Source: an uncultured cyanobacterium (GTDB taxonomy: Bacteria; Cyanobacteriota; Cyanobacteriia; PCC-6307; Cyanobiaceae). From it: a stretch of DNA of 44,598 nucleotides. The DNA lies in contig CAIJRN010000071.1 in assembly GCA_903823115.1 (NCBI GenBank), positions 1-44,598 of the forward strand, given 5' to 3'. Position 1 is the stretch's first letter. Each line of letters opens with the position of its first letter. Below, in pieces: positions 25,121 through 31,906 of this stretch. The translations under genes and the position numbers were made by a program. The notes under the pieces were generated by a model. The model ran no database searches. It was not told the DNA's origin and saw nothing but the letters and a program-made list of their open reading frames with translations.

Positions 25121-26227
25121 TCAGCGGATCGCTGGCTGGAAGCGTTCGCTGCGGATCGGAGCCATCAGGAACAACTTGGCCATCTCCAGGCCATTGGCAG
25201 CCCACCACGGCAGCTTGCGCAGGGTCCGCAACGGCGCCGGACCGCCGGCGGCATCAGCGGCGCTGAGAGCGGCGTTGTTGGTGACCAGGCGCTCGAGGCG
25301 CTGCCAGAATTTGGGATTCTCGACATCGAGCACCACGGGAAAGACGCGGGCTGAAGTTTCGTTGGTTTTGGCGATCACGTACTTGTCGTAGTCGCGGGCA
25401 TCGAGGCCCAGGGCCTCATAAAACTCTTTGCGGGCCACATCGCGCACGTACATGGTGGCGAAGACCGCCAAAAGGAAGAAGCGACACCAGAGGCGGGCAC
25501 TGAAGCCCCGCACCGTGTCCGGTTGGGCTTTCATCAGGGCATCGAAGAAATCACCGTGGCGATTTTCGTCCTGGCACCAGTTCTCGAAGAGGTTGAAAAT
25601 TGGGTAGATCTTGCTTTCGGGATGCTTCTCGAGATGACGGAAGATCGCGATGTAACGCCAGTAGCCGATCTTTTCAGAAAGGTAGGTGGCGTAAAAAATA
25701 AACTTCGGCTTGAAAAACGTGTAGGACTTGTTCGCTGTCAGGAAGCCGAGATCGAGTTGCAGGCCGAAGTCACCCATCGACTTGTTGAGGAAGCCGGCAT
25801 GGCGGGCCTCGTCGCGGGCCATGTGGGCAAAGCACTCAGCCAGCAGCGGGTTCTTTCCCTTGATGCGGCGGCTGAGCTCCTTGTAGAGCAGAAAACCGGA
25901 GAACTCAGACGTGCAGCTCTGCTCAAGAAACTCGATGAACACCTTGCGGGTTTCGGGGTCGAGTTTGTCGGCGGCGCCATCAAAGGTTTCGTTGCGAACG
26001 AAGTGGTGCCGGTTGTAGTCCTTGCGGAACTCCTCGCAGATCGCCTCCAGCTCTTCCTCGTTTGGCCGCAGATCCATGGCCGCCATGGCCTCGAAATCCG
26101 TGGTGTAGAAGCGCGGGGTCAGGATGGTGTCCTTGACCGGATCCTTCACGGCCGGTGCATCGGGGGTGCCCAGCCTTGGTTTGTCCTGGCTGGTGGAGAG
26201 GCTGGCTGTGGCGGCGGGAGGAACCAT
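25121..26227 (-). CDS. acsF: Mg-protoporphyrin IX monomethyl ester oxidative cyclase
   Basis: AcsF (ChlE) is the oxygen-dependent diiron enzyme that forms the isocyclic ring of chlorophyll. The 368-residue protein has the diiron ligands E108 and two E-x-x-H motifs: E140-A-R-H143 and E221-N-R-H224. The ATG at 26227 gives the usual length; a longer frame to 26350 is an Arg/Pro-rich extension overlapping the neighbour. It is the last gene of a leftward group after DUF2996, UbiX and the RNase homologue. Confidence 0.96.
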
Positions 26228-26331
26228 CGCGCGGCGCTTCTGACGGCAGATGGCGCCATCGTAGTGGGCACAGGACCAACTCGGGCCCGGTTGTTGTGGA
26301 CGGGCCCTTGGGCCGCCGCTGCTGGCAGCCC

Positions 26332-26778
26332 TCAGTTCGGACCCAGCCATTTCTGGCCGTTGAGCCGTTGCACCAGGCGCGAGACGATCAGGGCCAGGGT
26401 GATCTTCCTTTCGTCGATCAGAAAGGATTCCAGCAGGCTGGGATCGCCGCCTCCCTCGCTGACGGCAATCGTTTTGGCGGAAGTGAGCTCGGCGGCCGTG
26501 AAGCAGAGCCAGAAGCGGCGATCGCTGCCCAGGGAACCCTTGACCATCCAGCAGGGACTTCCCACCACCGGCATCGGACCCTGCTCAAAACTCAGTTCCG
26601 GCGCCGGTCCGCCATAGGCCTCCACTTCGCGGATCAAGGCCGGCAGCAGCAGCTGGGGCACAAACTCCTCAAAGGGGCGATCCTCCGGTGCCGGTGGCTT
26701 GGCTTTGACAGCGGTCGCTGGGGTGGTGCTGGCACCGGCCTCGGCAGGTTCAGGAGCGGGACGGGCGGAGTCGGTCAC
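26332..26778 (-). CDS. DUF2996 cyanobacterial protein
   Basis: This 148-residue protein begins with a GTG and a Pro/Ala-rich tail (1-30), followed by a domain with P-F-E-E-F, L-P-A-L, C-W-M-V-K-G-S, and [12 protein letters not shown] near the end, and closes with Q-R-L-N-G-Q-K-W-L. This matches the DUF2996 family of cyanobacteria and plastid-bearing organisms. Its place 104 bases before acsF suggests a role in chlorophyll or thylakoid biology, but this is inference. Confidence 0.85.
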
Positions 26779-26858: not shown

Positions 26859-27557
26859 TCACCAGTCATCCGCCTCGTTCTGGCCCCAGTCGTCAGCGAC
26901 GGCCACCGCTTCGGGTTGCGGCTCGTCGTGGACCGCGGTGGCTGGCTCCGTCCGAGCCTCTCCTGGCGCCGGTGCTGCCGTTGATCTGGCCCCAGGGCGG
27001 TGCAGCACACGAAAGGGCACGGCCACGGTCGGGGCCGGTTCGCCCGGGGGGCGCTGGGGACCGGCACCGCCGGCATGGGGGCGGCGCCCTTCACTGGTGG
27101 TGGCCGCTTCTGGTGCCGCTGGTGAGACCTTCTCCTGCTGGCGTGTGAACCAGTTGCCCATCCGTGATGGTGCTGGCTGTTGTTGCCAGCTCTCGGACCA
27201 GGGCTCCGAAGTGTCCATGGCGGATTGCGGCCGTCGCCGGCCGCTGCGCCGCTGGCTCGCCCCACCCTGCTGCAGGGCCAGGGCGGCGGCCGAAGCGCTG
27301 AGCAGGGCACCGCCACTGGCTCCAATTCCGATCCACAGACCGATCGGCAGCGGCGGCGTGGTCCAGATCAGCAGCCGCAACGCCAGATTGGGCCGCGGAT
27401 TGAGGGCCGCCAGCAACAGGGCCGCCAACAGGGGCGACAGCAAAGGGAGCAGCAGCAGGCGTCGAAGCAGCGCCAGAACGGTGAAGGGGCAGAGAGATTC
27501 AGGTTGAGGATGGCCGCTGCGGCGGCCCCTGCCAACGGTTGAGCTGGCCGAGATCAA
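26859..27557 (-). CDS. Two-helix membrane protein, LapA/DUF1049-like N-terminus
   Basis: This protein has about 232 residues. Residues 25-95 hold two membrane helices separated by N-P-R-P-N-L, with P-P-L-P-I-G-L-W-I-G-I-G-A-S-G-G-A-L-L-S in the second, as in LapA-domain proteins. The rest is a disordered Pro/Gln/Glu-rich cytoplasmic tail. The only start in frame is a TTG at 27557, which lies inside the end of ubiX (59-base overlap); the true start is uncertain. Function unknown. Confidence 0.65.
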   Translation of the reverse strand: MISASSTVGRGRRSGHPQPESLCPFTVLALLRRLLLLPLLSPLLAALLLAALNPRPNLALRLLIWTTPPLPIGLWIGIGASGGALLSASAAALALQQGGASQRRSGRRRPQSAMDTSEPWSESWQQQPAPSRMGNWFTRQQEKVSPAAPEAATTSEGRRPHAGGAGPQRPPGEPAPTVAVPFRVLHRPGARSTAAPAPGEARTEPATAVHDEPQPEAVAVADDWGQNEADDW

Positions 27558-28131
27558 GGCCGAGGCTGTCGAAGACCCGGATCACGAGAAAGTCCACCAT
27601 GTCATCGATGGTGCGTGGTTGGTGATACCAGGCGGGCACCGGCGGCGCAATCCTGGCCCCAGCTTCGGCCAGGGTGGTGAGGTTGCGCAGATGGATCAGA
27701 TTCCAGGGCAGTTCCCGCGGGGCGATCACCAGGGGGCGGCGCTCCTTGAGATGCACATCAGCAGCCCGCTCGATCAGGTCAAGGGCCACCCCCGAGGCGA
27801 TGCGACCGACGGTTCCCATGCTGGCGGGCAGGATCACCATCCCCCGGGTGGGATAGCTGCCACTGGCGATGGCGGCGGCCTGGTCGTTCCAGCGATGACA
27901 GCGCAGCTCGCCGCTGTGGCTGCCGCAGCGCTGTCGCCAGAACTGTTCCTGGGCATCCGGTTCGGATGGCACCCGCAGGCCCAGCTCGGCCTGCCAGACG
28001 CCGATGGCGCCACGACTGGTGACCATCTCAACCCGGTGATCGGCCTCCAGCAGCAACTGCAGCGCTCGCTGGGCCAGGGGCTGGGCGGAGGCCCCGGAGA
28101 CAGCCAGGACCACAGGATCGGACTTGCGCAT
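27499..28131 (-). CDS. ubiX: UbiX-family flavin prenyltransferase
   Basis: This 210-residue protein matches UbiX, which attaches a dimethylallyl group to FMN to make the prenylated flavin used by UbiD decarboxylases. Visible signatures are S-G-A-S-A-Q (13-18), P-A-S-M-G-T (102-107), and L-I-E-R-A-A-D-V-x-L-K-E-R-R-P-L-V followed by P-R-E-L-P. No ubiD gene lies in the window. It starts 8 bases after the RNase homologue and is probably co-transcribed. Confidence 0.9.
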   Translation of the reverse strand: MRKSDPVVLAVSGASAQPLAQRALQLLLEADHRVEMVTSRGAIGVWQAELGLRVPSEPDAQEQFWRQRCGSHSGELRCHRWNDQAAAIASGSYPTRGMVILPASMGTVGRIASGVALDLIERAADVHLKERRPLVIAPRELPWNLIHLRNLTTLAEAGARIAPPVPAWYHQPRTIDDMVDFLVIRVFDSLGLDLGQLNRWQGPPQRPSST

Positions 28132-28139
28132 CAGGGCGC

Positions 28140-30431
28140 TCAGTCCTCCTCGGAGTCGGCGTCAGCGTCAGCCTCGGAGTCGGCCTCGATCCTGTCGTCT
28201 TCACCGGCCTCCGGCAGCACCACGGCCAGATCGATCTGATGGCGCAGGGCATCCACCTTCTGGATCTCCACCTCAACGGTGTCGCCGACCATGAAGGTGC
28301 GGCGAAACTTCCTACCCACCAGACGGTTCTGGCGGGATCGGTACTCGTACCAGTCGTCCTTGAGCGAGCTGACATGCACCAACCCTTCGACATTGGAGGG
28401 GGGCACCTCGACGAAGAAGCCATAGCTCTGCACGCCGCTGATCACGCCGGGCAGCACCTGGCCCACCAGCGGTTCGGCGTGGCGGGCCTGGGCCATGGCC
28501 AGCAGGTCGTCCTGGAATTCCTGCAGCAGCCCCTGACGGCCATTCAACCGTTGGGCCAGGCCGTGCTGCAGCACCTGCTCATAGGGAGCCAGCTGGCTTG
28601 GGGCCAGCAGGGACCAGTCAATCGTGCCGTGGCAGCTGTCACTGGCGATGTCAGCACTGGTTTTGTGGCGCACGGTGGGGCGGTCCTTGCCCTCACACAG
28701 AAGCGTGACCAGCAGCTGCTGGTTCCAGAGGTCGGCGTAGTGGAGCGAGGGGCAGGTCCAGGGGGCAAAGGCTTCCGTTTCGCCCGCCAGCGCATGGGGG
28801 CCGGCCTCGTTGGCATACAGGGCTGGTTTGAGGCTGTCCCGTAGCTGTTGTTGCAGGGCCCGTTGGCGATCGGTGGCGGCGAAGGCGGCTGCCAGCTCGG
28901 CGGCGCTGGCGTTGCCGTCGACCGAGAGCTCCATGGGGATTTCCAGGGCCAGGGCGGCCTTGGCGACCTCGTTGATTTCAGCCGGGTCGGCGGCAGGGTT
29001 CACCGCGTAGAGCGCCGGCAGGCGCAGGGCCGCCAGGTGGCACCCCAGGGCCCGATGGGCGACCAGCACCGCTTCGCGCAGCACCTCGGAGGCATCGGCG
29101 GATGGCCGTTCCACCAGCCAGCCCTGGCGGGGGGCATCGGGGGCGGGCACCTGTAGATCCCCGAGTTGCGCCAGGGGCGGCATCGGCAGATGCAGATCGA
29201 TCGAGCCGGCGGCGAGCCGTCGCTGCCGCAGCAAGGCGCCCAGAGCCACCAGTTGCTCCACCAGGGGCAGGTGCTCCTTGAGGGCCTTGAGGGCCGCCGG
29301 TACGGTCCTGGCCTTGGGTTTGCGTTCGGCCAGGGCCTCAAAGGCGGTCTGGGGAACCCTGGCGCTGGGCCGAATGCGGCTGAGGCAGAAGCGGTAGTGC
29401 TCCAGGCGGCCCTCGGCGTCCAGTTCCAGGGCGACCGAAAGCGCATCCTGCACTTTGTCGACCTGGAAGGCCGCAGCCTTGGCCAGGGGTGCGCTCAGCA
29501 GTGGCAGCCAGCCGCGACCGGTGGCGATGGCGTCGCCCTGGTCGCGCATCCAATTGTCGAGGACACCGCCGAGGCTGAAGCGTTCGGCGACGCTGGGACT
29601 GTGGACCCAGAGCCGCCAGCGCCCGCCTTCGAGTTCCTCAAGGGAGAGGGCCGGCAGGATCGGAGCGTCCTCCGCAGACCAGCACTCCACCAGCAGGGCT
29701 GGAAGGGCGCTGAGGTCGTTGCGCCCTTTGTCCTGGGGCGTTTTGAGTGTGGCTTTTGGGGGCGCGGGGCGCTCGTGCAGCAGGTGCTTGGTCAGCAGCA
29801 GGTCGAGATCGGCCGCTTCCCCGCCCCGTACCGGCAGTTGGCGGGCCACATGGCCCAGGGGGCCGAACTGGCCGACGGGGAACTGGTCAATCTGCACCTC
29901 CACCACGGACTCCTGGGCGGGATCGAGGTGCGTCGCATCGCTGCTCGGCAGTTCAACCGTGGTCAGCAGTCGATCGTCGAGCGGGATGGCCAGCAGCCGT
30001 TCGTCCTGTTGTTCGATCTGGGCCAGCAGGCTTGAGGTCTTGCGTTGCAGGATGCATTGCACGCCGCCTTCCGGGGAGCGCCGTCGCCCTCCCTCCCGGG
30101 TGATGCGCACCAGCACCCGATCGCCATTCCAGGCGTGGTTGAGCTGGTGATCGCGGATGTAGATGTCCTCGCCGCCGTCATCGCGAAGGGCGAAGCAGAA
30201 GCCCTTGCTGGAACAGCGCAGACGGGCGGGAATCAGCTCCGGATTGTCCTGGCGCAGCAGGCCGGTCTCCTTTTCGCTGACCAGATCGAGGCGCACCATC
30301 GCATCGAGGCCGATTCGCAATTGCTCCTTGTCCGTTTTGCTGGACAGGCCAAGCGCTTTCTCCAGCTTGCTGATCTGCAGGCATTCTTCAGTGGAGAGCT
30401 GGTCGAGCAGGTCGGCGACCGTGAACTTCAT
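28140..30431 (-). CDS. RNase II/R-family protein with degenerate catalytic site (Zam-like)
   Basis: This 763-residue protein has the architecture of RNase R/II: an N-terminal helical and cold-shock-like region, an RNB domain (about 245-600) and a C-terminal S1 domain (about 655-735, V-G-Q-V-L-P-G-V-I-S-G-V-Q-S-Y-G-F-F-V-E-V). The RNB alignment is anchored by G-G-R-W-R-L-W-V-H. It shows that the active-site segment T-I-D-x-x-D-A-x-D-x-D-D-A of RNase R is replaced by residues 249-261 (E-C-W-S-A-E-D-A-P-I-L-P-A), so D272, D278, D280 and D281 (E. coli numbering) become W, P, L and P. The T-S-P-I-R-R-Y motif becomes T-C-P-S-L-H-Y (559-565). Exonuclease activity is therefore unlikely. It could be an RNA-binding pseudoenzyme, akin to the cyanobacterial acetazolamide-resistance protein Zam. 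The C-terminus is an Asp/Glu/Ser tail. Confidence 0.85.
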   Translation of the reverse strand: MKFTVADLLDQLSTEECLQISKLEKALGLSSKTDKEQLRIGLDAMVRLDLVSEKETGLLRQDNPELIPARLRCSSKGFCFALRDDGGEDIYIRDHQLNHAWNGDRVLVRITREGGRRRSPEGGVQCILQRKTSSLLAQIEQQDERLLAIPLDDRLLTTVELPSSDATHLDPAQESVVEVQIDQFPVGQFGPLGHVARQLPVRGGEAADLDLLLTKHLLHERPAPPKATLKTPQDKGRNDLSALPALLVECWSAEDAPILPALSLEELEGGRWRLWVHSPSVAERFSLGGVLDNWMRDQGDAIATGRGWLPLLSAPLAKAAAFQVDKVQDALSVALELDAEGRLEHYRFCLSRIRPSARVPQTAFEALAERKPKARTVPAALKALKEHLPLVEQLVALGALLRQRRLAAGSIDLHLPMPPLAQLGDLQVPAPDAPRQGWLVERPSADASEVLREAVLVAHRALGCHLAALRLPALYAVNPAADPAEINEVAKAALALEIPMELSVDGNASAAELAAAFAATDRQRALQQQLRDSLKPALYANEAGPHALAGETEAFAPWTCPSLHYADLWNQQLLVTLLCEGKDRPTVRHKTSADIASDSCHGTIDWSLLAPSQLAPYEQVLQHGLAQRLNGRQGLLQEFQDDLLAMAQARHAEPLVGQVLPGVISGVQSYGFFVEVPPSNVEGLVHVSSLKDDWYEYRSRQNRLVGRKFRRTFMVGDTVEVEIQKVDALRHQIDLAVVLPEAGEDDRIEADSEADADADSEED

Positions 30432-30596: not shown

Positions 30597-31004
30597 TTAC
30601 GGAGCGGTGGGCTCCCCATCGTGGCCCTCCTCGCCACCGCCACTTTCAAGGCCTTCGGTGGCCGTCGCTGCAGCGTTGGCGGCGTCCTCATTGGCGATGG
30701 CCGATCCCGTGCTGCTGCCGGGCTCCGCCTTGCCGGAGCTGGAGCGCAAGATCAATCGGGTGCCGATGATCAGGAAACCAGCCGCCGCCGCCAACTGCAG
30801 GCTGTTGGTGGGAACCACGCTCGAGAGGGAACCACCGGCGGCAGCCCCCACCAGGCTGGCCAGGACCAGGGCAAAGGAGCTGCCGGCAAACACAGCCCCG
30901 GGGCGGTTGGAGGTGCCGCTGATGCTGACGATGGCCAGTTGGGTCTTGTCCCCCAGCTCCGCCAGGAACACCGTGACAAACGTGGAGGCCAGGAGGGCAA
31001 GCAT
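30597..31004 (-). CDS. Half-size UPF0016 manganese exchanger subunit
   Basis: This 135-residue protein has three membrane helices and one E16-L-G-D-K-T-Q22 signature of the UPF0016/GDT1/Mnx cation exchangers, which normally carry two such motifs. The C-terminal 45 residues are an Ala/Gly/Glu-rich tail. Half-size pairs in cyanobacteria (hemi manganese exchangers, Hmx1/Hmx2) work together as a Mn transporter; the same is inferred here with the adjacent gene 12 bases upstream. Confidence 0.85.
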   Translation of the reverse strand: MLALLASTFVTVFLAELGDKTQLAIVSISGTSNRPGAVFAGSSFALVLASLVGAAAGGSLSSVVPTNSLQLAAAAGFLIIGTRLILRSSSGKAEPGSSTGSAIANEDAANAAATATEGLESGGGEEGHDGEPTAP

Positions 31005-31016
31005 GGCGGCGGGTGT

Positions 31017-31418
31017 TCAGCTGAGGACCAGGTGCATCGGCGAGAACTGCAGGACAGCCTGACGACCGAGCCAGAGGCCGAGCGCCACCATCAGCAGCCC
31101 TGCGGCCCGTTCCAGTTGTTCGGGCGCCATCACCCTGGAGAGCCAGCGACCCAGCAGCACACCCACCAGGCTGGAGCAGATCAGGGCCAGGGAGGCACCG
31201 ACGAAGACGACGCCGGGTCTGCCCGATTCGGCCGACAGCAGCAGGGCCGCCAGCTGGGTCTTGTCCCCCAGTTCGGCCAGAAAGACCGTGGTGGCGGTGG
31301 AGAGGAACACAGCTCCCCAGCTGCCAGCCGTGTCAGATCCTGAGGCTGCTGGTGCTTCTGCAGCGCCGGAAGGCTCGCCCTGGGAGGGCTGGACGACCGG
31401 ATCGGGCAGCTCACTCAT
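31017..31418 (-). CDS. Half-size UPF0016 manganese exchanger partner
   Basis: This 133-residue protein has a 33-residue Pro/Ala/Ser-rich N-terminus followed by three helices with E49-L-G-D-K-T-Q55. It is similar but not identical to the following gene, so the pair would supply the two inverted halves of one exchanger. The ATG at 31418 overlaps the stop of the YkgJ-type gene (ATGA), which supports this start over 31475. Confidence 0.85.
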   Translation of the reverse strand: MSELPDPVVQPSQGEPSGAAEAPAASGSDTAGSWGAVFLSTATTVFLAELGDKTQLAALLLSAESGRPGVVFVGASLALICSSLVGVLLGRWLSRVMAPEQLERAAGLLMVALGLWLGRQAVLQFSPMHLVLS

Positions 31419-31906
31419 CGTTTCTGGCGAATGGCGCGGTTGAAGCGTTGCATCACCCTGCCACGGCCTCCCCACTCACTGCGGATCTGTTGACGGCAGC
31501 AGGCGATCGCCAGTTCGTTTTGTTGGCTCGGGTCCAGGTGGGGGTTGATCGCTCCTTCCTCCGTGATTCCGCCGTTCTCTGTGCTGTTGCCATCCACATC
31601 CAGGGCCTGGGCGCCGAAGATTGGCTCGCCAGCCGAGCCGAGATTTTCGGGGCTGCTGCAGCTGGCGGGCTGGAAGAGCCCCACCAGATTCTCCACGCGG
31701 CAGAAATCGGGCCGCTGCTCATAGATGCGACAGCGGCGAGCGCCGGTGTCGAAGTGAAGGCACCAGCCATCGGCTCCCACCATCGCCAGATAGGTCTGCC
31801 GTTGCTGCGCATCCAGGGCCTCAAGTGCCTCAGCCCGCAGGGCCGGATCGAGTCGGCAGCAGGCGCCACAGCCGCCGATGCATTGCCACTGCTCTTCAGG
31901 CTTCAT
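31415..31906 (-). CDS. YkgJ-family cysteine-cluster protein
   Basis: This 163-residue protein has the YkgJ/UPF0153 pattern of Cys: C9, C13, C16, C17 (C-G-A-C-C), C49 (G-W-C), C59 (R-R-C-R-I-Y) and C69 (R-P-D-F-C-R-V), likely a zinc or Fe-S site. Residues 80-128 form a Ser/Asn/Gly/Glu-rich segment with more AT-rich codons, an insertion compared with compact family members. It is the first gene of an overlapping trio with the two manganese exchanger halves, so a metal-handling role is plausible. Confidence 0.82.

Follow-up and report, generated by a model that had tools for sequence, protein, structure and literature searches.

A probable Zam orthologue with a degenerate RNase R-type active site, encoded directly upstream of ubiX in an uncultured member of the Cyanobiaceae

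Results

The window, that is the whole stretch of 44,598 nucleotides analysed here from an uncultured cyanobacterium of the family Cyanobiaceae, encodes an RNase R-like protein with a degenerate active site, which we call Zam (28140..30431 including the stop codon, minus strand; assigned from the open reading frame and Pfam). The gene is one open frame of 763 amino acids without interruption, as stated in the original prediction. On the same strand lie an OB_RNB or CSD1 domain (residues 70-125; 30057..30224; Pfam PF08206, E 3.9e-20), an RNB domain (residues 237-578; 28698..29723; PF00773, E 1.7e-42) and an S1 domain (residues 655-736; 28224..28469; PF00575, E 5.2e-12). They follow each other in the order of RNase R and each scores above its Pfam cut-off, which for S1 agrees with its earlier description as intact. 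The Pfam match to CSD2 covers residues 88-129 and overlaps CSD1; an AlphaFold2 model has strands at residues 134-199, and two other Zam proteins, L039 and L042, have their best CSD2 matches at 181-231 and 155-227, respectively. Against the RNase R equivalog TIGR02063 the protein reached 200.8 bits, below the cut-off of 597.85.

A structure model had been proposed as a check, and the AlphaFold2 model, based on a 43-sequence alignment (pLDDT 78.5, pTM 0.73), predicts an RNase R fold. Structural neighbours were searched with Foldseek as well. Among solved structures, an RNase R bound to the 30S subunit came out best (Z 38.6 over 620 residues, 3.5 A), and the model also matched E. coli RNase R (Z 37.1), the RNase II variant D209N (36.0) and yeast Ssd1 (7am1_B; 32.2 over 605 residues).

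The domain architecture, the numbering of two cysteines and the distribution described below suggest the name Zam, the acetazolamide resistance protein known as sll1910 in PCC 6803 and as Zam in PCC 7002 (available portions of PMC9145284). That paper, of 2022, presents Zam as a nuclease that does not function and that carries two redox cysteines. In the window protein these are C73 and C79, numbered as in published Zam, within L-R-C-S-S-K-G-F-C-F (30195..30215, minus strand), a putative redox pair by conservation and by the excerpts of PMC9145284. C73 is present in 77 of 78 proteins of the window's family and in 136 of 137 other Zam proteins, and C79 in 76/78 and 135/137. In PCC 7002, according to the same excerpts, the gel mobility of purified Zam shifts with the redox state, and a serine in place of either cysteine reproduces the phenotype of a zam deletion, namely less phycocyanin and an altered PSI:PSII. 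The purified protein showed no binding to the tested RNA there, but it was aggregated.

We then compared the window protein with active enzymes at the catalytic residues. The original prediction held that all four metal-binding aspartates had been lost and that they align with W251, P257, L259 and P260. For the last two, including the essential one, this stands: L259 and P260 correspond to D280 and D281 of E. coli RNase R in all alignments made. For the first two, the outcome varies with the register. Three alignments anchored on R-x-D-L agree in pairing E249 with D272 and D255 with D278, after which two residues are inserted: an hmmsearch profile built from eight proteins whose sites are complete or nearly so, an hhalign comparison of profiles (probability 99.7) and a phmmer alignment to RNase R of E. 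coli (5xgu). MAFFT places E249 at D272 and P257 at D278. The assignment to W251 and P257 appears in the phmmer alignment to RNase R 8cdu_C, where R-x-D-L, a motif conserved otherwise, is shifted by two residues; as firm sites of the first two aspartates, these residues are countered by the profile alignments and by 5xgu. E249 and D255 could be acidic remnants of the first two aspartates, though they are not kept across the family, where an acidic residue occurs at position 249 in 29, at 255 in 51 and at both positions in 26 of the 78 members.

In every alignment, at least D280 and D281 are thus missing from the four-aspartate site that defines RNase R. The motif T-S-P-I-R-R-Y reads T-C-P-S-L-H-Y at residues 559-565 (28737..28757, minus strand, located by alignment), as had been noted before, and the catalytic arginine is replaced by L563; leucine is found here in 58 of the 78 family members. 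The register of the first two aspartates matters little for activity, because the RNase II counterpart of D280 (L259 in the window protein) is D209, the third of the four aspartates. Exchange of D209 for asparagine abolished the activity of RNase II and left RNA binding unaffected, as reported in the available part of PMC3293843. With the last two aspartates and the catalytic arginine replaced, the sequence supports the predicted loss of catalysis, and the window protein is very probably a dead nuclease.

The comparison set consisted of 215 Zam proteins, 78 from the window's family, which probably corresponds to the picocyanobacteria, and 137 others, read in MAFFT columns. Before counting we dropped a 354-aa fragment (L193), a second entry for the L185 gene (L194), twelve duplicates and three repeats (L002, L003 and L055); close relatives stayed in the counts, since only identical cores were removed. 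In the MAFFT register none of the 215 proteins has all four aspartates. Outside the family, three are present in 35 proteins, two in 45, one in 16 and none in 41, and the 35 proteins with three retain D272, D280 and D281. Within the family, 77 of 78 lack all four. These graded counts rule out a uniform degeneracy of Zam sites. We had also considered that Zam always lacks an aspartate at D278, an idea refuted by six of the 137 proteins; these are of the Okeania/Trichodesmium type (L143, L144, L148, L155, L158 and L161) and combine Asp at D278 with N or S and H at positions 280 and 281. Nostocaceae-like Zam proteins have E-N at D280/D281 in 7/7 read. For D272, D278, D280 and D281, 30, 9, 9 and 6 losses were counted if regain is disallowed, and 8, 2, 6 and 5 in the smallest-change reconstruction. 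The tree was built rapidly with FastTree from 111 of the 215 Zam rows and its outgroup branch is long, which leaves the root and the order of the losses unsure.

The segment that formerly bound metal (residues 249-260; 29652..29687, minus strand, delimited by alignments) mostly reads W-x5-P-x-L-P in the window's family. Among the 78 family sequences, which come from 48 genera, W251 is found in 75, P257 in 77, L259 in 70 and P260 in 70. By weighted entropy these positions rank 22, 9, 68 and 63, respectively, among 356 RNB positions. The strict motif occurs in 61/78 family members and in 0/137 other Zam proteins. The segment as a whole is slightly less constrained than the remaining RNB domain and consists of a few conserved positions among variable ones, a pattern that argues against the entire segment being a new site under strong constraint.

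Selection on the gene was estimated as dN/dS from 15 hand-chosen pairs among 30 sequences of the genus (14 usable pairs for the pseudo-site). Over the whole gene the median was 0.097; by region, the medians were 0.0 in CSD1 (residues 70-133), 0.085 in CSD2, 0.109 in RNB, 0.15 in the pseudo-site and 0.022 in S1. CSD1 is also the most conserved domain by mean entropy (0.67 bits; S1 0.91, RNB 1.85). The gene is therefore under purifying selection, strongest in CSD1 and S1, and the RNB domain is constrained too despite its degenerate site. The earlier claim of a gene under selection rather than in decay was thus confirmed, with a median dN/dS of about 0.1 within the genus.

A search of the whole source genome (3.42 Mb, 86 contigs) with the Pfam RNB profile revealed one further RNB protein, L001, which carries T-I-D-D-D-D-T-V-D-I-D-D and T-S-P-I-R-R-Y. 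Since this Rnb keeps all four aspartates, the genome encodes an RNB protein with an intact site in addition to the presumably dead Zam. Pfam detects neither a cold-shock nor an S1 domain in L001; for Synechocystis Rnb, modelling in the accessible part of PMC3293843 assigned a CSD1 that is divergent and an S1 that is short.

Of 388 genomes sampled from the class, all at least 99% complete, 387 have Zam, 386 of them by one query and G149 by a second one. Matches were obtained for 357 of the 400 genomes from the window's family and for 245 of the 251 more complete ones; the other six had no Zam match at 1e-20. The gene is kept even in relatives with genomes of 1.6-1.9 Mb. Across the phylum, 145 of 291 sampled genomes matched the Zam query. 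Four of the 145 belong to other classes, have weak scores and contain, as their sole RNB proteins, ones with complete four-aspartate sites, and the non-matching genomes among those listed (20) are all from other classes. The one remaining genome of the 388 (G482, locus L235), near-complete and in a single contig, gave no Zam match, and its sole RNB protein is of the Rnb type, with N-E-I-D-D and thus E for the second aspartate. In G038, a fragmented genome of 97% completeness, the Rnb-type gene alone was found, and Zam is apparently absent. In G020, from the same genus as the window, zam is split into two overlapping frames (C151:51552-53839), by a frameshift or an assembly error.

On the minus strand, zam is followed by ubiX, which encodes a flavin prenyltransferase (27499..28131; NCBIfam TIGR00421, 159.6 bits, cut-off 108.9), and only 8 nt separate the zam stop from the ubiX start. 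Further downstream are an ORF, a DUF2996 protein between ubiX and acsF (26332..26778, minus strand; Pfam PF11210) and acsF for Mg-protoporphyrin IX monomethyl ester cyclase (25121..26350, minus strand; NCBIfam TIGR02029, 504.6 bits, cut-off 192.5). The order zam-ubiX-ORF-DUF2996-acsF agrees with the ordered operon described in the original prediction. Among 204 loci with enough flank, ubiX lies 3' of zam, on the same strand and within 500 nt, in 174: in 29/29 of the genus, 43/46 of the rest of the family and 102/129 outside the family, the last being counted without L194. The misses include deep-branching loci (L048, L050 and L051) and loci of the Okeania type. acsF is present in all three family loci that have at least 1950 nt downstream of zam; it was seen near zam in 4/48 family loci, where the flanks are mostly too short to show it, and in 1/120 elsewhere. 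The link to acsF is thus found mainly inside the window's family, and the link to ubiX across most cyanobacteria sampled. The neighbourhood of zam held no direct link to RNA decay. Just upstream of zam, at 30597-31475, we observed two adjacent single-domain GDT1 (cation/proton antiporter) genes; GDT1 is near zam in 48/48 family loci, 28/29 genus loci and 0/120 loci elsewhere.

Discussion

Taken as a whole, the explanation that we consider likely is that the window protein is an orthologue of cyanobacterial Zam, a pseudonuclease that arose from an RNase R-like enzyme. It has in common with published Zam the domain order, the numbering of C73 and C79, a degenerate site and a separate intact Rnb alongside, as far as the available text of PMC9145284 describes them. 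Since these features are shared, the central observation is already in print. The interpretation as an inactive protein is sound, and the novelty that the original prediction implied falls away, because a non-functional nuclease with redox cysteines was published for Zam in 2022 (PMC9145284, in excerpt). The same excerpts call the active sites of Zam poorly conserved, whereas the window's family has the conserved W-x5-P-x-L-P. Compared with RNase R (E. coli rnr; TIGR02063), the fold, OB_RNB and S1 are shared, but the window protein is without D280, D281 and the catalytic arginine and lies far under the equivalog cut-off. Cyanobacterial Rnb, represented by L001 in the same genome and by the Synechocystis protein in the accessible text of PMC3293843, likewise has an RNB domain; it keeps the four aspartates and T-S-P-I-R-R-Y, while Zam does not.

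Three observations appear to be new relative to PMC9145284 and to the open-licence literature: the graded loss of the metal ligands, the re-fixed W-x5-P-x-L-P motif and the pairing of zam with ubiX. For the pairing, no report was found in open-licence literature, in which ubiX itself was little queried, and the words ubiX, plastoquinone and operon are absent from the available text of PMC9145284. Each of the three leads to concrete mutants that can be tested.

Zam retains the RNase R fold with its RNA-binding domains and the cysteine pair, as judged from the sequence, and its most likely role would be that of a thiol-switched, non-catalytic regulator of RNA turnover. Zam would work without cutting; its OB domains may bind RNA and/or RNase E under thiol control, and this binding would then adjust the turnover of RNA. 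That a switch acting on RNA or RNase E is the mode of action of Zam is a tentative proposal, to which we give slightly less than even chances. Counting against it, purified PCC 7002 Zam, although aggregated, bound none of the RNA tried, and the neighbourhood of zam offers no direct tie to RNA decay. Its RNase E link comes from Alr1240 of Anabaena, on which two papers disagree. In the portions of PMC9145284 at hand, Alr1240 is called Zam, the inactive protein, and binds RNase E through its cold-shock and S1 domains; the review PMC10989914, as far as available, presents an active RNase II-like enzyme that degrades unstructured RNA and stimulates RNase E. If Alr1240 is both active and Zam, then Zam is not always inactive, or one of the papers has the wrong protein. 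An RNase E binder acting through cold-shock and S1 domains would fit Zam, because the genome's own Rnb is without a Pfam match to either; E-N at D280/D281 in Nostocaceae-like Zam does not fit an active enzyme.

The Alr1240 reports bear directly on the idea that Zam has a weak or altered nuclease activity, exerted through E249 and D255 or confined to the lineages with three aspartates. The 35 of 137 non-family proteins that keep D272, D280 and D281 are in line with it, as are the activity reported for Alr1240, provided that it is Zam, and the lack of cold-shock and S1 matches in the genome's own Rnb. However, the last argument is weakened by the modelled CSD1 and S1 of Synechocystis Rnb, the residues at D280/D281 are E-N in the seven Nostocaceae-like proteins and L-P in the window protein, and both position 249 and position 255 are acidic in just 26 of the 78 family members. 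As the D209N exchange by itself inactivates RNase II (PMC3293843, in the part available), we regard residual nuclease activity as improbable. Far less probable still is that the gene is decaying and about to be lost. The catalytic residues are gone, RNB evolves faster than CSD1 and S1, and six of the more complete family genomes gave no match, but dN/dS is well under 1 over the entire gene including RNB, which in practice rules decay out, and the re-fixed positions in most of the 78 family members as well as the presence of Zam in nearly all sampled genomes point the same way.

A possible, though less favoured, reading is that Zam is a translational repressor or mRNA binder resembling Ssd1, binding RNA at the outward surface of its cold-shock domains and not in the channel. 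The modelled fold is common to Zam and yeast Ssd1, and conservation is concentrated in the cold-shock domain over RNB, as it is in Ssd1 (PMC8934651 and PMC8097288, available parts). Against this, RNase II enzymes generally have that fold, RNase R scores higher, and Zam has no known RNA target. We also think it rather doubtful that the former metal site has been rebuilt as a working element, for example for channel closure or docking of RNase E, with Zam coupling quinone or redox status to RNA turnover through the thiol switch and the zam-ubiX linkage. The original prediction had proposed a regulator of the pigment operon, which is a weak proposal. In this form Zam would act locally on its own operon with ubiX and acsF, and hence on plastoquinone and chlorophyll synthesis. 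The close spacing of zam and ubiX and the recurrence of this pair in 174 of 204 loci would suit it, and plastoquinone has a redox role. Nevertheless, acsF was seen near zam in few loci, even allowing for the short flanks in the family, and linkage suggests co-expression, not regulation. With the broad zam phenotypes in the excerpts of PMC9145284, local regulation seems unlikely, and a thiol-switched regulator of RNA turnover in general is preferred.

Among bacteria, Zam is the counterpart of a fungal pseudonuclease, Ssd1, and nearly every cyanobacterial genome sampled has kept it. According to the accessible parts of PMC8097288 and PMC8934651, Ssd1 and the fungal pseudonucleases likewise combine the RNase II fold with a lost site, conservation in the cold-shock domain and repeated loss. 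They differ from Zam in being eukaryotic, in their descent from Dis3L2, in their channel-blocking insertions and in having known mRNA targets. In many genomes, zam-type genes carry an exonuclease annotation (PMC9145284, in the text available), a label that misleads.
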